Shown: positions 3,289 through 23,744 of the stretch, one piece after another | How the letters are laid out: every line of letters begins with the position of its first letter | Numbering within the stretch: the stretch's first letter is position 1 | DNA from: a virus | Strand: one strand, 5' to 3' | Length of the DNA stretch: 27,872 nt | IMG/VR virus record: IMGVR_UViG_3300002514_000017 | Span: 47,247-75,118 of that record | Notes under the pieces: generated by a model | Database searches by the model: none | The model's input: only the letters and a program-made list of their open reading frames with translations | What the model was told of the DNA's origin: nothing | Program-made: the position numbers and the translations under genes

Positions 3289-3528
3289 ATGGACTTCATG
3301 AAGGACGTCAGGGAGAGCGAGCTATATAAGAATAGCATACGTGGGCTATCTGAGGAGGAGATAAAGCAGGTCGAGAGAGAGCTCGAGGCACTAACAGGGC
3401 CGCTGAGTGAGCTAGCTAATCACATACAGTCACTCGCAGCAGATGACAAGGGATTCTTTGAGATGATAGATGCGATAGCTGAGGTGACAACTGCTAAGGA
3501 GGTCAAGAAATGGCACGAGAAAAGCTAA
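3289..3528 (+). CDS. Small acidic helical protein between tail genes, unknown
   Basis: This 79-aa protein reads as helices rich in Glu, Lys and Leu (for example SEEEIKQVERELEALTG) and has no Cys. It starts 1 nt after the tape-measure stop (TGA 3285-3287) and its last 19 nt overlap the next gene. The ribosome binding site of that next gene (AAGGAGGT, 3496-3503) lies inside its 3' end. The tight coupling suggests an accessory role in tail or baseplate assembly, for example as a chaperone, but no family is recognised. Confidence 0.65.
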   Translation: MDFMKDVRESELYKNSIRGLSEEEIKQVERELEALTGPLSELANHIQSLAADDKGFFEMIDAIAEVTTAKEVKKWHEKS

Positions 3529-6500
3529 AAGACTTCTTGGCTGCAGCCGGTGTGCACCTAGACGGTGGGATATCAACAGAGAATCGGATAGCATACACGA
3601 TCGATGATCCGAGTGGTGATGGAGTCGGAGCTGACCTAGGAATAGATCCAGGAACACAGCGGGAACTACTAGGCCTCCACGAGGGAGGAGTGAGTGAGGG
3701 ACTACTGGGAGAGTGGCTACAGCTTATCGTAGACGAGTCAGGCAACCTATTCACTCTAGAGCCAGGGATAGAGCAGGCTGCGTCGTCTGACAGAGGTAAT
3801 GTCCTTCCTGCGGCAGAGGAACAGGGTGTCGTCCGTCCGTTCGTCACGACGTCAGAGTCAGATAGCCTAAACCGTGACCTGGGACCTGTCATGACCTCTT
3901 ACTCTAACTCTGGAATGTTCGACAGCGGTGAGAATGACCTGTCTGACATAATCGATAAGACAGGCCATAATGATCCAAGAATTCAGGATGACCCAAGTGC
4001 ACAGACACCTCACCACTCTGGACACACGATGCTGTCAAGCATAGTTGGAGAGGACATGGGAAACCAGGGCTTCGCTGATAGCGGATATCTCCCAGAGTCA
4101 ATCCTCCAGGAGCAGGTCGAGTCAGACCTCGTCAGGAATAGTAGATTCAACCCAGCATCTGACGGAAGGAAGAAAATATACTCAAAATATCCAACTACAG
4201 TAAGTGCTCTAGAGATGGGAGAATCTATTCAGGGAACAACAACATCTCAGAATCTATTTGGTGACTATGACAAGGAGGCTGTCGAGATGATAAGTGACGA
4301 GCTCAAAAATGTTGCGGAGTCACTTATGATAAAGGCAGCCGGCTGGGATAAGTCAACCTCTCCATCAGGCGATGACGGAAGTGTAGATCCAAATGATCCT
4401 GTGTATCTTGATAACACAGCTAACAGGGAGTCAACTGACTATACTAATCGGTTGATTGACCCAGCGGTCCTGCGTGCTAAAAATGCATTCGGTGCACCGA
4501 GTGGGGAGTCTGGAGAGTCGACACGTGCTGCGAGAGGGGACCTTCTCATACATAATGACTTGAGTCAGACAAGATACACGAGATCTCACGGAACGATAAA
4601 CACACCCGACACACCGTTCACGAGCTCGACGTCACATCACGTCCTTGTGTCACAGGCTGCGGGCGCCATAGTTGCCATGATGGCATTCTCAAAGGTCGTC
4701 TTTGACTCAGTTCTCATCGGTGGCCTCAGCAACAGGGTTGACCTGCTAAATGGTCCTTATTTCCAGGGACAGGCGAGGGTCATACCTCATCTATCAAAGA
4801 TGCAGCTATTTAGGCGTGTCATTCTCACAAGCACCGACTATCCATATGAGACATGTGTGAACCTAGGATTTGACCTGCTATTTAACATAAACTTCTCATC
4901 ATTTGAGGCCTCATCAGCAAATACCGCAACAGCTATGAGCTCACTCAGTGAAACTGTAGATAATTCACCAATGCTTGGAGAGTCATCAGGCTTCTGGCTA
5001 TCTGTTGCAAGAAAGATACTGAGATCTTACTCAGACATCTCTGTGACGACAAACCAGATAGTAAATAGTGAGGGACTAAGAAACACGACGAGCTCATTCA
5101 GTAATATTCTCTTTGAGATCTCAAAGTCAGGCATAATAGACATATTAAATGTCATGGCAGTAACGGGTGACGTCGCCCTAAAGGCATCAGGTGGATCTGT
5201 TGAGGAGGCAAAGACACCAGGATCATCAGTTAGTCCATTTAATGTAGATGCATTACCTGACGGCCCAGCCACCAGGATCTCTAAGAGCAGGAGTCAGGAT
5301 GGCAATACAAACCTAGCCCTAGCGTGGAGGGGAAACTCAGTTCCAAGCATGTACATGATATCACAGAATATCATTAACGCGTCTATCCAGCTCAACACAG
5401 TTGCCACAGGCCAGAATCCCCTCAAGGGACTGGTTGGGTCTAGCCTCATTAAAGACACTTACATAGATCCTGCCATGGAGGGGCAGAACGCAAGAATTCC
5501 AAGTGACGTCGTAGAGAGAATGGAAAACTTTCTAGATGCAGAGTATGTCCCATTTTACTTCCATGACCTACGAACAAATGAGATCGTCTCCTTCCACGCG
5601 TTTATCACACAACTCGGTGACTCGTATAACCCGAGGTTCACGTCAACTGCAGGATACGGTCGAATGGACCCTGTTCAGACATTCAAGAGCACGACACGTA
5701 GCATATCACTCTCATTCATCATAGCGTCTACATCTAAGACAGACTTTGATGAGATGTGGTGGAAGATAAATAAGCTGACTACGATGATATATCCGCAGTG
5801 GACACAGGGCGATAAGCTAGCAAGTGCACGTGCACTCGGAAAATCCACATTTATCCAGCCATTCAGCCAGGTCCTCGGAGGATCCCCGATCATCAGACTG
5901 AGGGTCGGTGACGTGATAAAGGGAAATTATTCAAGATTTAACCTTGCAAGGCTATTTGGAATAGGAGACACAGGAATTAAGCCTAGCCTCGTCGATGAGG
6001 CTGTTGCGCAGAAGACCCTAGCTACAGTACCAGATGCGATGGCTAAGGCTGGCATGCACCCGGTCCACAGGGAGGTCTTTAATGTGATGTTTGCATCTCC
6101 AATGGCACTCATAGCTAAAATTCCTCAGGCTGATGTGGCACGAGCTGTTGGCTCTGTTGTGTCACAGCTTCTAGAGAATGGATTTGCAAATCCCGCTGCT
6201 ATGTTCTTTATAAACAGGCAGTTCAAGGATCCCGACTCAGTCTCACAGCCATCGGTGCCCTCTGTCACACTGAAGGGGGGCATAGAGTATGCTATGTCTA
6301 TGCTAGACACAGAGGCAGGCCCACAATTACGTGGATACTTTCCGCTCAACGTCGTGTATCTCAGGGCAACAGCTGGGTATGACGTGAATTTTACAGCGAA
6401 GTCTGGAGACTCACTTGGAAAGTGGAAGATAAATAGGCCGCTGAAGGTCATCATCGTGAAGCCATCACAGATAGACGGACAGAAACAGATGCTGCAGTCT

Positions 6501-10815: not shown

Positions 10816-12024
10816 GTGAAAGTCACGATACTGAACAGCACACTAGGAACACCGAGGCACCTCGTGCATGACGGAACAGAATTCTCATGGGCGTCGAGCA
10901 TTCCGAGTGACTCGTGGGTCTATCCTGGAGTCTCCGGTCACAGAGACCTGCTACCTATAGCAGAGGCTCTCGGAGAGAAGATATCAGGATTTGAAGACAC
11001 ACCGCACGCAGTGGCCTGGGAGTCAATGACAAGGGGAAGGGATGTCAGGATACCATGGATGCATGCCATCCCGCCCGATCAGTTTCAGAGATACCTCTCA
11101 GGCATCCTAGATCAGCTCTGGATGATCATCAGGACAGAGAATGACAGTTACTATATGAATGAATTCGTGATCAACAGAGGGATGCTAGAGAGCCTCTGTC
11201 CGCCCATTGTCGATAAGCTTCTGATAGAGAATTTTTTGATAGACGCGACAGATAAGTCCAGAGCAGACCTTCTAAAGTTTTTACCTGATGAAAGTGGACG
11301 TGCACCTCACTCGTCTTATACCCAGAGCAACACTGTCACGGGCCGCCTGACAGCCACGAGCGGACCTAATATCCTCACCCTGAAGAGGAAGTATAGAGGC
11401 ATGATGAGATCTGAGTTCAAGAACGGATCTATCGTTCAGGCTGACATAGTGTCTCTTGAGCCCAGGATAGCTCTGTGCGTCGCACAAAAGACTCCACCTG
11501 AAGACATATATGACACTATCATGAATGACGTGCTCGGGGGAGAGGTCTCACGGTCGCAGGCTAAGATAGCAACACTCGGGTGCATATATGGAATGAGCCC
11601 ATGGACGCTATCTAAGAAGCTCCCTGAGAGTCTAGATGCCAGAGATATATTAATGAGAATTAGAGACTACTTCGACATACCACATCTAGAGAGGGGTCTA
11701 AAGAGAGAGTTCAGGGAAAAGGGCTTCATTGAAAATATCTATGGAAGAAGAGTTCCTGCCGGAGATGCACTAGTGAATCACTTTTTACAGTCCACAGGAG
11801 CAGATGCATCTCTCCTAGCATTTAGTATGCTTAAGAGCAAGTTAGATGACCTCAACGCGAGATTTAAACCTCTCTACATCATCCATGATGCGATCTTATT
11901 AGATCTAGATGCGTCAGCCCTAGCGTCTCTCAGAGAGATAACATCATCTGGTCTAGAGGTGCCAAAATTTAAACAAAGATTTCCTATAAAGATAGAATTT
12001 ATAGGCGGAGATAAACATGAATGA
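10816..12024 (+). CDS. Family A DNA polymerase lacking the proofreading exonuclease
   Basis: This 402-aa protein is about half the length of a typical phage PolA. It has the palm and fingers motifs in order: VTGRLTATSGPN at 174-185, motif A D210-IVSLEPR, motif B R246-x3-K250-x3-L254-x3-Y258-GMS, and motif C IIHDA at 355-359. NIYGRRVP at 308 and NHFLQSTGADASLL at 321 also match the family. The first ~165 residues show no 3'-5' exonuclease motif. Residue 254 aligns with E. coli Pol I Phe762 and is Leu. Residue 359 aligns with Glu883 and is Ala. The start is a GTG without a Shine-Dalgarno sequence. The downstream HD gene overlaps by 8 nt. It probably replicates the phage genome with the nearby helicase, SSB and exonuclease; proofreading may be encoded elsewhere. 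Confidence 0.9.
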   Translation: MKVTILNSTLGTPRHLVHDGTEFSWASSIPSDSWVYPGVSGHRDLLPIAEALGEKISGFEDTPHAVAWESMTRGRDVRIPWMHAIPPDQFQRYLSGILDQLWMIIRTENDSYYMNEFVINRGMLESLCPPIVDKLLIENFLIDATDKSRADLLKFLPDESGRAPHSSYTQSNTVTGRLTATSGPNILTLKRKYRGMMRSEFKNGSIVQADIVSLEPRIALCVAQKTPPEDIYDTIMNDVLGGEVSRSQAKIATLGCIYGMSPWTLSKKLPESLDARDILMRIRDYFDIPHLERGLKREFREKGFIENIYGRRVPAGDALVNHFLQSTGADASLLAFSMLKSKLDDLNARFKPLYIIHDAILLDLDASALASLREITSSGLEVPKFKQRFPIKIEFIGGDKHE

Positions 12025-12654: not shown

Positions 12655-14280
12655 ATGAGCAAAAGATTTAAACCAAGTCCAGTTAAGCCAGAAATGGGTG
12701 TGTGGTCCGGAAGAGGGATCGGCATTCCTGTTGTGGGAGCGATAGGCGGCGGAGATGACTATAAGCAGAAGATAGGTCGTGACAAGATACGGTGGGACCA
12801 GACAGGCTTCAAGGGTTCTCCTTCTCTGTCTGCTGACGCTACATACTCTGTATACCTTGCAAGGGTCAATAAGGACTGGGATGAGGAATATGAGGCTGTA
12901 ATGTTTCCCAGTCAAGAAGAGGACGATGTGAATATTTATGATATGGATGTCTCTGCCATAAGAAGCAGAAAGACTCCAAGGGATTTTAAAGTGAAGCATC
13001 CAAGAGCTCTCGGAATATCAGAACGTCACGTCTTTGACGAGAATGATGTCGTCGAGAATAGCCGATATCGTCTCACCCAGGTCACTGAGGGAATATTTAC
13101 ACAGATATTTGGAGATATAGCAGGAGACATAGGCGCAGCTGCTTTAGCAGCTGTACCACTCTTTGGAGTACCTGCTGCCGCTGGTCTCGCTGGCTGGAAT
13201 ATAAAACAGCTGAAAGATGACATGGATAATTCTGATGTCGCGATCACCGCATTCTTAAAATCACCAAGTGATGACACAGTTGAGATGATGAATGATGAGC
13301 TAGATAGCATTACAGTTAACCTGATCGACCTCTTTCAGAGACTTCTCGAGTTAGTTCCAGATGCAGAGTGGCCGATCGGAGAGGCTGCCAGTGTGATGAC
13401 ATCAATAGTTAATAATCTTGTTAAGCTTAAAAGGGCTCTTCAGGTCACAGGATTAGCCACACCAAAATTTACTCACATGCCGATCGGGGGCATAGGTCCG
13501 ACAGGACCAGCCACATCGCTGGCAACAAAAACAGCTGCAAAGGCAAAAGTCGCTGGAATCATCACACCAATACTCAAGTTCTTCATGGGAATTCTCGACT
13601 CTGGAGCTGCACCAAGGGTATTTAGAGATAATAAAGGTGTGATACTTGGAGTTCCGCGCAGGATGATACTTCTAGCTGACCTCATAGATGACTATCACAT
13701 TCAGGAAGACGCAGCAGCAGCAGTTGGACAGGAATTTGTTTATCAAAATAGAATAATCCCTGAGGGGGGCTATAATTCTTATGACTATGTGAGATCTCCG
13801 ATAAGATCAGGTCAGCAAGCTCCTCAACAACAAGCTTTTCGAGTTGAGGATCTAACTTTTTCAGATCCAGCTGCAGCAGTAGCTCACATTCAACGACAGC
13901 AACAACAAGGACAACAACTATCTTTAGAGGAAAGAACTATGAGAAAAGATATGAAGAATCTAAGAAAATTCATAAGAGAGACAGTTAAGACAGCGCTAAG
14001 AGAGACATCTTATCCAGACTATCCCTCTATGCACCCTCCTAATCCCACAGGATATCAGTTCAGAAATGTTCCTGTTATCGAACCAGAGTCTCAGCAGGTC
14101 GATAAATTTGAAACACTTGATAGCTATGATGACTTCTCTGTCTCATACACAGCTGATGGAGGAGTTGTCAACTACCAGGCGAGGAATAAGCTTAAGCTCG
14201 ATGAGGAGAGACATCTCGCTCTGAGAAGGTTAATTCGACAAGATATCGCTGGGATTGTCAAAGAGTCAAAAAAAAAGTAG
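12655..14280 (+). CDS. Unknown protein with hydrophobic segment and Gln-rich linker; upstream partner of an apparent -1 frameshift
   Basis: This is a 541-aa protein of unrecognised family. A Gly/Ala-rich hydrophobic stretch at about 152-181 (GDIAGDIGAAALAAVPLF and onward) could insert in or disturb a membrane. Residues ~385-420 are Gln-rich and probably flexible, followed by basic helices (MRKDMKNLRKFIRETVKTAL). A similar helix, LRRLIRQDIAGIVKES, is at the very end. The frame ends KKK-stop on A9-G (14268-14277) and the -1 frame continues directly into an SGNH hydrolase. An extended -10 motif (12631-12639) precedes the start, so it may head its own transcript. A virion-associated or ejected protein is one possibility. 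No enzymatic motif is visible in this part. Confidence 0.7.
   Translation: MSKRFKPSPVKPEMGVWSGRGIGIPVVGAIGGGDDYKQKIGRDKIRWDQTGFKGSPSLSADATYSVYLARVNKDWDEEYEAVMFPSQEEDDVNIYDMDVSAIRSRKTPRDFKVKHPRALGISERHVFDENDVVENSRYRLTQVTEGIFTQIFGDIAGDIGAAALAAVPLFGVPAAAGLAGWNIKQLKDDMDNSDVAITAFLKSPSDDTVEMMNDELDSITVNLIDLFQRLLELVPDAEWPIGEAASVMTSIVNNLVKLKRALQVTGLATPKFTHMPIGGIGPTGPATSLATKTAAKAKVAGIITPILKFFMGILDSGAAPRVFRDNKGVILGVPRRMILLADLIDDYHIQEDAAAAVGQEFVYQNRIIPEGGYNSYDYVRSPIRSGQQAPQQQAFRVEDLTFSDPAAAVAHIQRQQQQGQQLSLEERTMRKDMKNLRKFIRETVKTALRETSYPDYPSMHPPNPTGYQFRNVPVIEPESQQVDKFETLDSYDDFSVSYTADGGVVNYQARNKLKLDEERHLALRRLIRQDIAGIVKESKKK
14271..14277 (+). promoter_or_regulatory. In-frame A AAA AAG slippery heptamer for -1 ribosomal frameshifting
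   Basis: In the frame of the upstream gene the codons read AAA (14272-14274), AAG (14275-14277), then TAG (14278-14280), preceded by A at 14271. This is exactly the X XXY YYZ form A AAA AAG used by E. coli dnaX. After a -1 slip the next codon is GTA (14277-14279) and translation continues KVVAVGDSNTVG into the hydrolase. A two-tier hairpin begins 7 nt downstream. Sequence and frame are observed; activity is inferred. Confidence 0.7.
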
Positions 14281-15350
14281 TAGCTGTTGGAGACAGTAAT
14301 ACTGTCGGAGTCGGCAACAACAATACGTCGTATATAAACCTTCTTGGTGACGACATCGACGTCGGAAAGTTCGCCACAGGCGGTAAGGCCAGCTTTCAGC
14401 TAGGGGGAAAGCTGGCACAGGCCTTGCGAGGTAATCCAGACTATGTTGTAATTTTTGTGGGAATTAATAATCCTATGTCTGAAAGAGGTTGCTTTGGCAA
14501 ATTCCCACGAAAAGGCACTGGGTTCACAGAAGAGTCTTGGGTGGGTGATGTAATTAATGACCTGAGGTCATATTATGCTAAAGTAAAAAACAGGGGACCA
14601 CAGCTCGACCCGCCAAAGGAGATAAGGGTCATAGGAATTACTTTAGTTCCTGCTGTAGGGCGCTGGAGTAAAAAATATGATAAATGTCTAAAGAATGATC
14701 CATATGGGATAAAGTCAAGCAAGGGTGATGTCATAGATCTCGAAGATAAGGGTCAAAAGGATTGTTATCGATTACGATGTGATGCTTTAGAGGAGCGCGA
14801 GCCGGGAGTATTTACAGTCAAGCGTCCAGGTGAGGGACTCGAAAGACGTAATCCGAGTATTCTTCTCGCGCAAACTAAAAGGGTTAACGATTGGATACGA
14901 TCAAATGCTGACATAGTCATCGACGCTGCGTCAGCATTAAGTGATGAGAGTGGTATCTTACCAGCTTATGATAGTGGTGACGGCATTCACCTAAACAATG
15001 CTGCACACCAGTGGATCGCTAGAGAGATTAGTAGAATAGTTGGACCTACTGTGGCAATAGATGATGCTGTAGAAGACAATGATGATCCTGACGATATCGT
15101 GAGAGAGTCAAAAGAGGGCGCTGATCATCCTGGTAAGTCATGTGAGGAGTCTCATCCTGAGGTGTCACATGATGACTGGGTTGAAGACCAGGCTAATGAG
15201 GTCTCTGGTGCGGGAGGAATTGCTGGAGTTATCCTTCCACTTGGAATGTCTGCACCGTCACATGGAAGAAAGAGAAAGCCAGCTTGGCAGGCTGCAGGAT
15301 CTGGATTCGCTCGGGCGACACCGGTCGGCGACATAAAGTGGAATAAATAA
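14277..15350 (+). CDS. SGNH (GDSL-type) hydrolase domain, reached by -1 frameshift from the upstream gene
   Basis: The -1 frame is open from 14205 and gives 357 codons after the slip, for a fusion of about 898 aa. Fusion residues 542-550 read VVAVGDSNT, the first strand and catalytic block I of SGNH hydrolases with Ser548. FATGGKASFQL supplies the block II glycine, IFVGINNP the block III asparagine, and DGIHLNNAAHQWIA the block V Asp/His pair. SGNH enzymes remove acyl or acetyl groups from lipids, glycans or peptidoglycan; the substrate here is unknown. No ATG, GTG or TTG exists in frame before 14280. The first alternative start (TTG 14424) would delete the nucleophile. After the catalytic domain comes an acidic linker and a Gly/Pro-rich basic tail. 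A tail- or virion-associated esterase or deacetylase is a reasonable guess. Confidence 0.8.
   Translation, partial: VVAVGDSNTVGVGNNNTSYINLLGDDIDVGKFATGGKASFQLGGKLAQALRGNPDYVVIFVGINNPMSERGCFGKFPRKGTGFTEESWVGDVINDLRSYYAKVKNRGPQLDPPKEIRVIGITLVPAVGRWSKKYDKCLKNDPYGIKSSKGDVIDLEDKGQKDCYRLRCDALEEREPGVFTVKRPGEGLERRNPSILLAQTKRVNDWIRSNADIVIDAASALSDESGILPAYDSGDGIHLNNAAHQWIAREISRIVGPTVAIDDAVEDNDDPDDIVRESKEGADHPGKSCEESHPEVSHDDWVEDQANEVSGAGGIAGVILPLGMSAPSHGRKRKPAWQAAGSGFARATPVGDIKWNK
14285..14319 (+). promoter_or_regulatory. Two-tier stem-loop downstream of the slippery site
   Basis: An inner perfect stem GACAGT/ACTGTC (14292-14297 and 14301-14306, loop AAT) is enclosed by an outer stem TGTTG/CAACA (14285-14289 and 14315-14319). 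The outer stem starts 7 nt after the heptamer, close to the spacing of known stimulatory hairpins. The inner stem overlaps the codons of the catalytic Gly-Asp-Ser. Pairing is read by eye, without energy calculation. Confidence 0.5.
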
Positions 15351-22391: not shown

Positions 22392-22413
22392 CATAGTTAT
22401 GCTTAGAGGCAAC

Positions 22414-22797
22414 ATGGCATACTCAAAAAAGGTCCTAGATCATTTTAAAAATCCCAAAAATATAGGATCTTTAGATAAAAATGATAAAAATGTAGGAACG
22501 GGAATTGTCGGAGCGCCTGAGTGCGGTGATGTAATGAAGCTACAAATTAGTGTAAAAGATTGTTGCATAGTTGATGCTAAATTTAAAACATTTGGATGCG
22601 GTTCAGCAATAGCTGCATCATCACTTGCAACAGAAATGATAAAAGGTCGTACATTACAAGAAGCATCAACTCTCAAAAATACAGAAATCGTTGATGAGCT
22701 CAGCCTCCCACCGGTGAAAATACACTGTTCTGTTCTAGCTGAAGAAGCTATCAAGTCAGCTATTGAGGACTACAGGAGCAAGAATGATGAAGGGTGA
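22414..22797 (+). CDS. iscU: IscU Fe-S cluster scaffold protein
   Basis: This 127-aa protein is collinear with bacterial IscU from its first residues (MAYSKKVLDHFKNPKNIGS). It keeps Cys37 and Asp39 in GAPECGDVMKLQ, Cys62 in TFGCGSAIA, and His104-Cys105 in VKIHCSVLAEEAI. The LPPVK motif (98-102), by which the HscA chaperone recognises IscU, is intact. All cluster-assembly residues are therefore present, and the protein could work with the host IscS, HscA and HscB. I chose ATG 22414 over 22399 because it matches the family N-terminus and has GAGG 4 nt before it. It lies just downstream of the reductase and 6 nt upstream of an A-type carrier gene. Such an intact scaffold is unusual in a phage. 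Confidence 0.93.
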   Translation: MAYSKKVLDHFKNPKNIGSLDKNDKNVGTGIVGAPECGDVMKLQISVKDCCIVDAKFKTFGCGSAIAASSLATEMIKGRTLQEASTLKNTEIVDELSLPPVKIHCSVLAEEAIKSAIEDYRSKNDEG

Positions 22798-22803
22798 TAT
22801 AGA

Positions 22804-23133
22804 ATGTCAATAACAATGACAGAGAATGCAATAAGGGCAGCATCAGATGCAGTAAATGATGATGACGCACACCCGATCGGCTTGCGAGTAGCAGTAGTCG
22901 GCGGCGGATGCTCAGGATATTCTTATGGCCTTGACTTCGTTGAAGACGATGATATAGATGAGGATGATTCTCAGCTAAAATTTGGTGGCTTAACAGTCTA
23001 TCTCGATCCCCACAGCGCGCAGATGCTCGGCGAAACCGAGATCGACTACGTCGAAACACTCCAGAAGAAGGGCTTCGTGTTTAACAACCCGAACGCGAAG
23101 ACAACCTGCGGCTGCGGCTCGAGCTTCAGTTAG
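22804..23133 (+). CDS. A-type Fe-S carrier (IscA/ErpA/SufA family)
   Basis: This 109-aa protein carries the three family cysteines, Cys36 in VVGGGCSGYSYGLDF and Cys102/Cys104 in TTCGCGSSFS. It starts SITMTENAI as in IscA. These proteins hold and deliver Fe-S clusters downstream of the IscU scaffold, whose gene ends 6 nt earlier. The loop around 47-56 is very acidic. The 3' half (from about 22999) is GC-rich with nearly all third positions G or C, unlike its AT-rich flanks, suggesting a host-derived segment. ErpA, IscA and SufA cannot be told apart reliably here. Confidence 0.9.
   Translation: MSITMTENAIRAASDAVNDDDAHPIGLRVAVVGGGCSGYSYGLDFVEDDDIDEDDSQLKFGGLTVYLDPHSAQMLGETEIDYVETLQKKGFVFNNPNAKTTCGCGSSFS
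22999..23133 (+). other. GC-rich, host-like segment in the A-type carrier gene
   Basis: By hand count 75 of 130 bases are G or C in 23001-23130, against 39 of 120 in 23161-23280 just downstream. Almost every codon from residue 67 to the stop ends in G or C. This looks like a recombined segment from a GC-rich bacterial gene. Confidence 0.6.
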
Positions 23134-23141
23134 CTAAAAAC

Positions 23142-23744
23142 ATGAAATGGACAACTAAAGTATCTCATCTTATTAAAGAGGTTGAGCTCAGAAAAAATCC
23201 TATAATTGTGACAGTTAATAAGTTTGACGAAAAATCTGCAAAAGAGTTTCAACAGCAGATATCTATGGCACATAACACAGGTCAAAGTGTGATTCCAGTT
23301 GTGATTGATTCATACGGTGGACAAGCTTACAGCTTAATGTCTATGATTTCCGCTATAAAGCATTCAGAGATACCAGTTGCAACTATTGTTGAGGGCAAGG
23401 CGATGTCATGTGGAGCAATTTTATTCTCTTTTGGTGAGGACGGTCTCCGTTTTATGGACAGCGATGCAACGCTCATGATTCACGATGTCTCATCTATGGA
23501 GCGTGGAAAGGTTGAAGAGATCAAAGCGTCTGCAGAAGAAACTGAGAGGCTTAATCAGATTGTCTATAAGATGATGGCTAGAAACTGTGGTAAGAAAGAC
23601 GATCACTTTCTAAAGCTTGTTCACAAGAAGGGACATGCAGACTGGTTTTTAAATTCAGAAGAAGCTAAGAAGCATAACCTAGCAAATCACATAAGAATCC
23701 CTAAGATTAACATTAATATTGCAGTTGACATAGACTTTGAATAA
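23142..23744 (+). CDS. ClpP-like serine protease
   Basis: This 200-aa protein is about ClpP length. The fold signatures are VVIDSYGGQAYSLMSMISAI (oxyanion Gly-Gly), VEGKAMSCGAILFSFG with nucleophile Ser89, LMIHDVS with His114, and HADWFLNSEEAKKHNLAN with Asp167, so the triad is complete. ClpP needs an unfoldase partner; none is encoded nearby, so it may use host ClpX or ClpA, or act alone. In many phages a ClpP-like enzyme is the prohead protease. Here it is far from head genes and next to Fe-S genes, which favours a host-modifying role, but that is inference. No good Shine-Dalgarno precedes the ATG. Confidence 0.85.
   Translation: MKWTTKVSHLIKEVELRKNPIIVTVNKFDEKSAKEFQQQISMAHNTGQSVIPVVIDSYGGQAYSLMSMISAIKHSEIPVATIVEGKAMSCGAILFSFGEDGLRFMDSDATLMIHDVSSMERGKVEEIKASAEETERLNQIVYKMMARNCGKKDDHFLKLVHKKGHADWFLNSEEAKKHNLANHIRIPKININIAVDIDFE

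Follow-up and report, generated by a model that had tools for sequence, protein, structure and literature searches.

The question raised by this locus is how a reading frame that carries every block of an SGNH hydrolase, but no start codon before its catalytic serine, could be expressed. The window (the whole stretch of 27,872 nucleotides analysed) comprises positions 47247-75118 of the 75,118-base IMG/VR virus record IMGVR_UViG_3300002514_000017. On its + strand, the ORF list and translation give a 0-frame open reading frame of 541 aa (12655-14280), the predicted short product, whose 3′ end reads TCA AAA AAA AAG TAG. The proposed slippage site is the A9 run at 14268-14276 (+ strand), conserved as A8-A12 in relatives, and the terminating TAG occupies 14278-14280. 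The sequence-only reading had described the gene as ending on an in-phase A AAA AAG heptamer followed by TAG, and this is confirmed: the heptamer lies at 14271-14277, inside and at the end of the A9, in phase with the 0 frame. The junction is the only place on the + strand of the window with a run of eight or more A, and outside the junction only 2 runs of nine or more A occur in 402 kb of the window phage and its relatives. The sole other sense-strand A9 runs lie a few bases past the start codon of a RecA-like gene (ATGTCAAAAAAAAATAATG, position 6000 in both L027 and L049, the L-numbers being labels of loci).

The extension (14268-15350, + strand, 360 aa) is accessible solely via a frame change, given its lack of start codons: the open stretch of the -1 frame spans 14205-15350 and the first ATG, GTG or TTG does not occur before 14424, i.e., past the GDS block. 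Its translation, KKKVVAVGDSNTVG..., contains all the catalytic blocks, GDS at 14289-14297, GxN (GIN) at 14460-14468 and DxxH (DGIH) at 14979-14990. Pfam places an SGNH hydrolase domain at 14277-15029 (+ strand), with matches above the cut-offs to Lipase_GDSL_2 (PF13472, 9.5e-16) and Lipase_GDSL (PF00657, 1.6e-7). The earlier claim that the -1 frame encodes such an enzyme with no start ahead of the serine is thus upheld, and the predicted hydrolase is likely a working enzyme. The body encoded by 12655-14280 has a low-complexity, helical character and no family match in the Pfam, PHROG or NCBIfam profiles; its family is restricted to T4-like, uncultured marine phages of this group. No homologues of body or hydrolase were found in cultured phages by tblastn, and no solved structures match by sequence. 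AlphaFold gives poor models for both parts (pLDDT 53 for the body with 19 sequences, 34 for the extension from a single sequence).

Conservation was assessed in 80 loci fetched using the neighbouring RecA-like protein. Many of these contain a homologue of the 541-aa body at the same place, 5′ of a gp32-like gene, and the homologues are 22-39% identical in the alignment. In relatives the body frame stops at the A-run, past which the -1 frame encodes homologues of the last ~50 residues of the window extension. This C-terminal tail (15168-15350, + strand, ..GGIAGVILPLGMSAPSHGRKRKPAWQAAGSGFARATPVGD..) is common to the family and matches the tail profile with an E value of 3e-20; this profile was built from 18 sequences that include the window tail, and a separate match is seen without it. 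Body and tail profiles were run over 86 loci, representing 38 clusters at 90% nucleotide identity. The tail is found at -1 behind an A8-A12 run in 21 of the 38 clusters (window phage included), at +1 in 1, in frame with the run kept in 7, with an A9 inside the tail in 2, and in frame without a long run in 7. Further scans added one -1 member (L140) and one +1 member (L133), bringing the totals to 22 clusters at -1 and 2 at +1 (L065 and L133), both of the latter being single contigs in which homopolymer errors are possible. A scan with L084 as query returned no match besides L084 itself. The alignment of homologues that the sequence-only reading had proposed as a check therefore shows the offset kept in the 21 -1 clusters and L140, with an in-phase A AAA AAN heptamer in all 21. 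Since no start codon is found within 17 codons past the run in any of these 21 clusters, a separate start for the extension is excluded.

Several loci depart from this layout. In L032, L033 and L035 (run at 4224, 4878 and 4862) the usual A-run is missing and an A9 occurs deeper in the tail, shifting the last 39 residues into the -1 frame, so that the switch has apparently arisen anew at another position. Past the -1 shift, the tails of L090 (about 5530) and L142 (about 1530) change frame a second time, at TTTGGGAAG as compared with TTTGGAAG in L015, which could reflect an indel error or a further shift. In L049, L055, L097, L024 and L118 the body is only about 240-265 aa long, with N- and C-terminal parts present and the middle (about 300 aa) absent; in L055/L056 a related middle region forms a separate gene just 3′ (3466-4995).

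The frame of the tail is itself variable. The gp32 tree shows at least 5 switches of frame state on well-supported branches, the run being mostly retained; across the family the end of the run occupies each of the three codon phases, with the tail at -1, +1 or 0. In the in-frame clade every one of the 15 Lys codons within the run is AAA, vs. 15 of 35 at other invariant Lys columns (Fisher 8e-5, or 0.03 by column; relatedness among the sequences makes the true significance weaker). A slip at the run in these members leads to a stop within about 4-16 codons, i.e., to a short product. Because they keep the AAA run and would slip to the short form, both products seem to be retained as a pair. The occurrence of the same gene in -1, +1 and in-frame layouts suggests that the two-product outcome, and not the frame, is what is selected.

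The hydrolase has a different history from the switch. In the window the SGNH domain is placed between the A-run and the acidic linker of the tail, so that the extension is composed of a ~260-aa SGNH insert and the older conserved tail (about 15168-15350). The domain is missing from all other family members, and no relative was found with the hydrolase as a separate gene, the finding that had been named as refuting recoding. The run-start sequence ATTGTCAAAGAGTCAAAA (14254-14271) has a near-copy, ATCGTGAGAGAGTCAAAA, at 15096-15113 (+ strand, encoding IVRESK), identical at 15 of 18 nt and located on the far side of the insert. This near-copy suggests, from sequence comparison, that the domain arrived by insertion with a short duplication. 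The nearest relative of the body, L084 (47% identical), has an A10 and a -1 tail, KKKVDDESESAEENHHVDEQSAGGVPGPALPLGMSTPTFGRKRKPPWKAAGDAFGRATLVGD, without the SGNH domain; in the -1 clusters other than the window phage the tail is 60-96 aa long. Because L084 has the run and the -1 tail and lacks the hydrolase, the frame change is, as read from these sequences, older than the hydrolase, which is a recent insert limited to the window phage. The sequence-only reading had left the choice between recoding and a broken gene, and had centred the switch on the hydrolase. The conserved frame transition decides the former for recoding; the latter does not hold, the hydrolase being a late insert in an older family with a short tail.

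Conservation of the frame transition among relatives points to recoding rather than to a sequencing error or a broken gene, and as a sequence feature the recoding is almost certainly conserved and real. A-runs are error prone and the hydrolase has been seen in a single phage population, which could suggest an error or a gene broken in the window phage alone. However, two further IMG/VR contigs of this phage from other metagenomes, which align with the window along 9,470 and 4,015 bases, each with a single mismatch, have the identical A9, and the same offset occurs in 21 other clusters. An error or broken gene is therefore very improbable; the idea of an A9 read in place of an A10 is rejected by these three contigs and by the relatives. 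Alternatively, slippage during DNA replication could alter the run length and keep part of the phage population in the long-product state. Sister lineages do differ (A10 in frame in L038 vs. A9 at -1 in L116), and DNA-level change thus happens over evolution. Nevertheless, the run has one and the same length in contigs of a single species taken from several metagenomes (five with A9, L040-L044; four with A11, the L015 group; three with A10, L050-L052), so that rapid phase variation, also raised in the sequence-only reading, is improbable. The recoding may also be real and the SGNH insert a functionless passenger, which would be compatible with either slippage mechanism. The insert occurs in one population, and its sequence does not differ among the three contigs, which makes selection on it unmeasurable; against a passenger stand the long intact frame, the retained catalytic blocks and a GC3 equal to that of the body gene (0.37 each), and this explanation is considered a minor though reasonable possibility.

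The frame may be changed by the polymerase or by the ribosome. In the proposed mechanism, one transcription unit would give two products. Most copies would end at the TAG directly past the A9, while stuttering of RNA polymerase on the run would provide some transcripts with one extra A, on which the ribosome would enter the extension frame and produce body, SGNH hydrolase and conserved tail together. The family would retain the run so as to retain both products, members with the tail in frame slipping to the short form instead. Transcriptional slippage is also known in IS elements. The runs of A8-A12, with AAA kept in the in-frame members, agree with the homopolymer expected of such sites (about 8-9 or more A or T, conserved at the nucleotide level). 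The typical threshold for slippage is nine nucleotides (PMC1088944), and precedents include the A11 of tssM1 (PMC4256274) and the A9/A10 of dnaX, in both layouts (PMC5009743; PMC3711429). From this pattern we infer a role for the polymerase, whose slippage is probable and somewhat likelier than -1 ribosomal slippage.

Slippage of the ribosome at the A AAA AAN heptamer is the main rival. The heptamer is in phase in every -1 member and could yield all 22 -1 cases, 22 of the 24 shifted clusters being at -1; in the in-frame members a -1 slip runs into a stop no more than about 4-6 codons later, which is also the arrangement of E. coli dnaX. On the other hand, no shared downstream RNA structure is found (mean z -0.13, 21 clusters) and no shared Shine-Dalgarno-like element upstream of the run is evident by eye, stimulators being usual in bacteria although not strictly required. 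A downstream stem-loop or pseudoknot was rejected as stimulator: the small GACAGT-AAT-ACTGTC hairpin located 15 nt past the run in the window has no counterpart shared in the family. Furthermore, two +1 members exist, and the runs reach A12 and end in any codon phase. A codon simulation shows the run to be no longer than expected from the heptamer and the encoded Lys residues and amino acids, and so does not separate the two models; since each run also holds an in-phase A AAA AAN, ribosomal slippage is compatible with the data and has an appreciable, if lower, probability. The ribosomal heptamer of the sequence-only reading is therefore present, while as a mechanism polymerase slippage fits at least as well, with run ends in any phase, tails at -1, +1 or 0, and no structure.

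The genome that contains the junction is T4-like by profile matches, with a gp17-type terminase, Portal_T4 (8e-75), Gp23 (3e-77) and a tail sheath, and it encodes a gp21-type prohead protease (Peptidase_S77 2e-26, phrog_207 1.6e-53). By terminase, RecA and gp32, the closest phages in culture are ones infecting Flavobacterium and Microcystis, at less than 45% identity; tblastn finds no body gene in them, but the corresponding region of Mel-JY01 encodes a protein terminating in a similar helix, MKITREQLKEKIRIIVKRVLNEAMK. Elsewhere in the window, a family A DNA polymerase of merely 402 aa (10816-12024) seemingly consists of the C-terminal polymerase part alone, and adjoining IscU-like and IscA-like iron-sulphur cluster assembly proteins (22399-23133) are followed by a ClpP-like protease (23142-23744). 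In G000, two neighbouring proteins of ~1,000 aa have similar starts (40068-43256 and 43289-46333); the first matches tail sheath profiles and the second looks paralogous.

In T4, internal proteins have short N-terminal peptides for head entry that are removed by gp21, which cleaves after L/I-X-E; these CTS peptides direct proteins into the head (PMC9026906). The N-terminus of T4 IpIII is MKTYQEFIAEA. The body of the window gene ends in an LRxxIRxxI helix, LRRLIRQDIAGIVKES, directly 5′ of the A-run (14221-14268, + strand), and a similar helix, LRKFIRETVKTALRE, occurs ~85 residues earlier (13960-14004, + strand). In the family alignment the Glu of FIRE in this first CTS-like helix (column E442) is invariant across 19 members. 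Most junctions in the family come after an LRxxIRxxI helix, often terminating in [LI]xE. This motif lies just 5′ of the run in 18 of 31 clusters and in 11% of the background windows (P 3e-10, on the assumption that clusters are independent); it is enriched in the family, yet the pre-run site of the window phage itself is V-K-E, and a large in-frame clade is without [LI]xE at this position. The major capsid protein of the window phage contains LLREQ near residue 60, and the putative scaffold LLRET. Distant phages have at the same place a small protein of about 85-130 residues that starts with the same type of helix, including [LI]xE, and continues with an acidic linker and tail. In L064-L082, the stretch between the HD and gp32 genes encodes small proteins with an N-terminal LLRxxIRxxI..E helix, an acidic linker, a G-PLG tail and a Lys-rich end, which may represent an ancestral state of the tail module.

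On the basis of these motifs, the family is thought to comprise prohead core or internal proteins, with the extension as cargo or as a core-binding tail. Motifs and genome context favour a place in the prohead, and the analogy to G/GT tail proteins that the sequence-only reading drew for the ratio of short to fusion protein is not supported. Since the body carries capsid-targeting-like helices, both product forms are probably proteins of this prohead kind. The prohead protease may cut between IVKE and SKKK and between IVRE and SKEG in the window phage, and cuts at both sites may free the hydrolase inside the head. The hydrolase could well be head cargo, since the junction helices resemble T4 targeting and cleavage sequences and the genome has a prohead protease of the gp21 type; for the hydrolase or extension as head-internal cargo the prospects are about even. 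Taken together, two products made by polymerase slippage, head location, and cleavage with release are by a small preference the best explanation. A fully slippage-controlled head-cargo system, in which a minor extended prohead protein docks the enzyme, the protease releases it in the capsid and it is delivered to the host, is rather unlikely in that complete form.

With this locus, a recoding switch at poly-A that is conserved among relatives comes to light in a gene family of marine T4-like phages that had no name before. Within the incomplete set of papers searched, programmed transcriptional slippage is not described for any gene of a double-stranded DNA phage, nor is an enzyme joined to a phage protein by such a frame change. 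Annotation pipelines split such genes, and an active enzyme, as predicted here, would be missed.

Several known systems share features with this arrangement. Citrobacter rodentium tssM1 also has an A-run (A11) near a stop, a C-terminal domain out of frame and no stimulatory structure (PMC4256274), and its relative, Yersinia tssM3, slips to a short form instead; however, tssM1 is a bacterial secretion gene in which slippage is measured, whereas for the phage family we infer it. The dnaX genes of Thermus and Chlorobi resemble the family in having in-frame and two-ORF versions at A9-A10, both giving a short and a long product (PMC5009743; PMC3711429), but encode a DNA polymerase subunit, with a known product ratio in Thermus. 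Capsid proteins 10A/10B of T7/T3 and phage Ig-like extensions (PMC5009743) are structural proteins with a C-terminal extension added by frame change, in which in-frame, -1 and +1 versions coexist. In contrast, their shift is ribosomal and the added domain non-enzymatic, and the window gene belongs to a different family, which is no known shell protein. The lambda G/GT tail assembly chaperones also combine a short and a frame-shifted long product, but differ in gene context and motifs, and T4 is named as an exception without a G/GT-type frameshift (PMC5009743). Comparable as regards the proposed head role are T4 IPI-III and Alt, with a gp21-type protease in the genome, variable cargo and a targeting-like peptide, the [LI]xE end of which occurs in many members of the family but not in the window phage, where it is V-K-E (PMC9026906); their targeting peptides are N-terminal and involve no recoding, and the likeness is one of motif, without demonstrated sequence homology.
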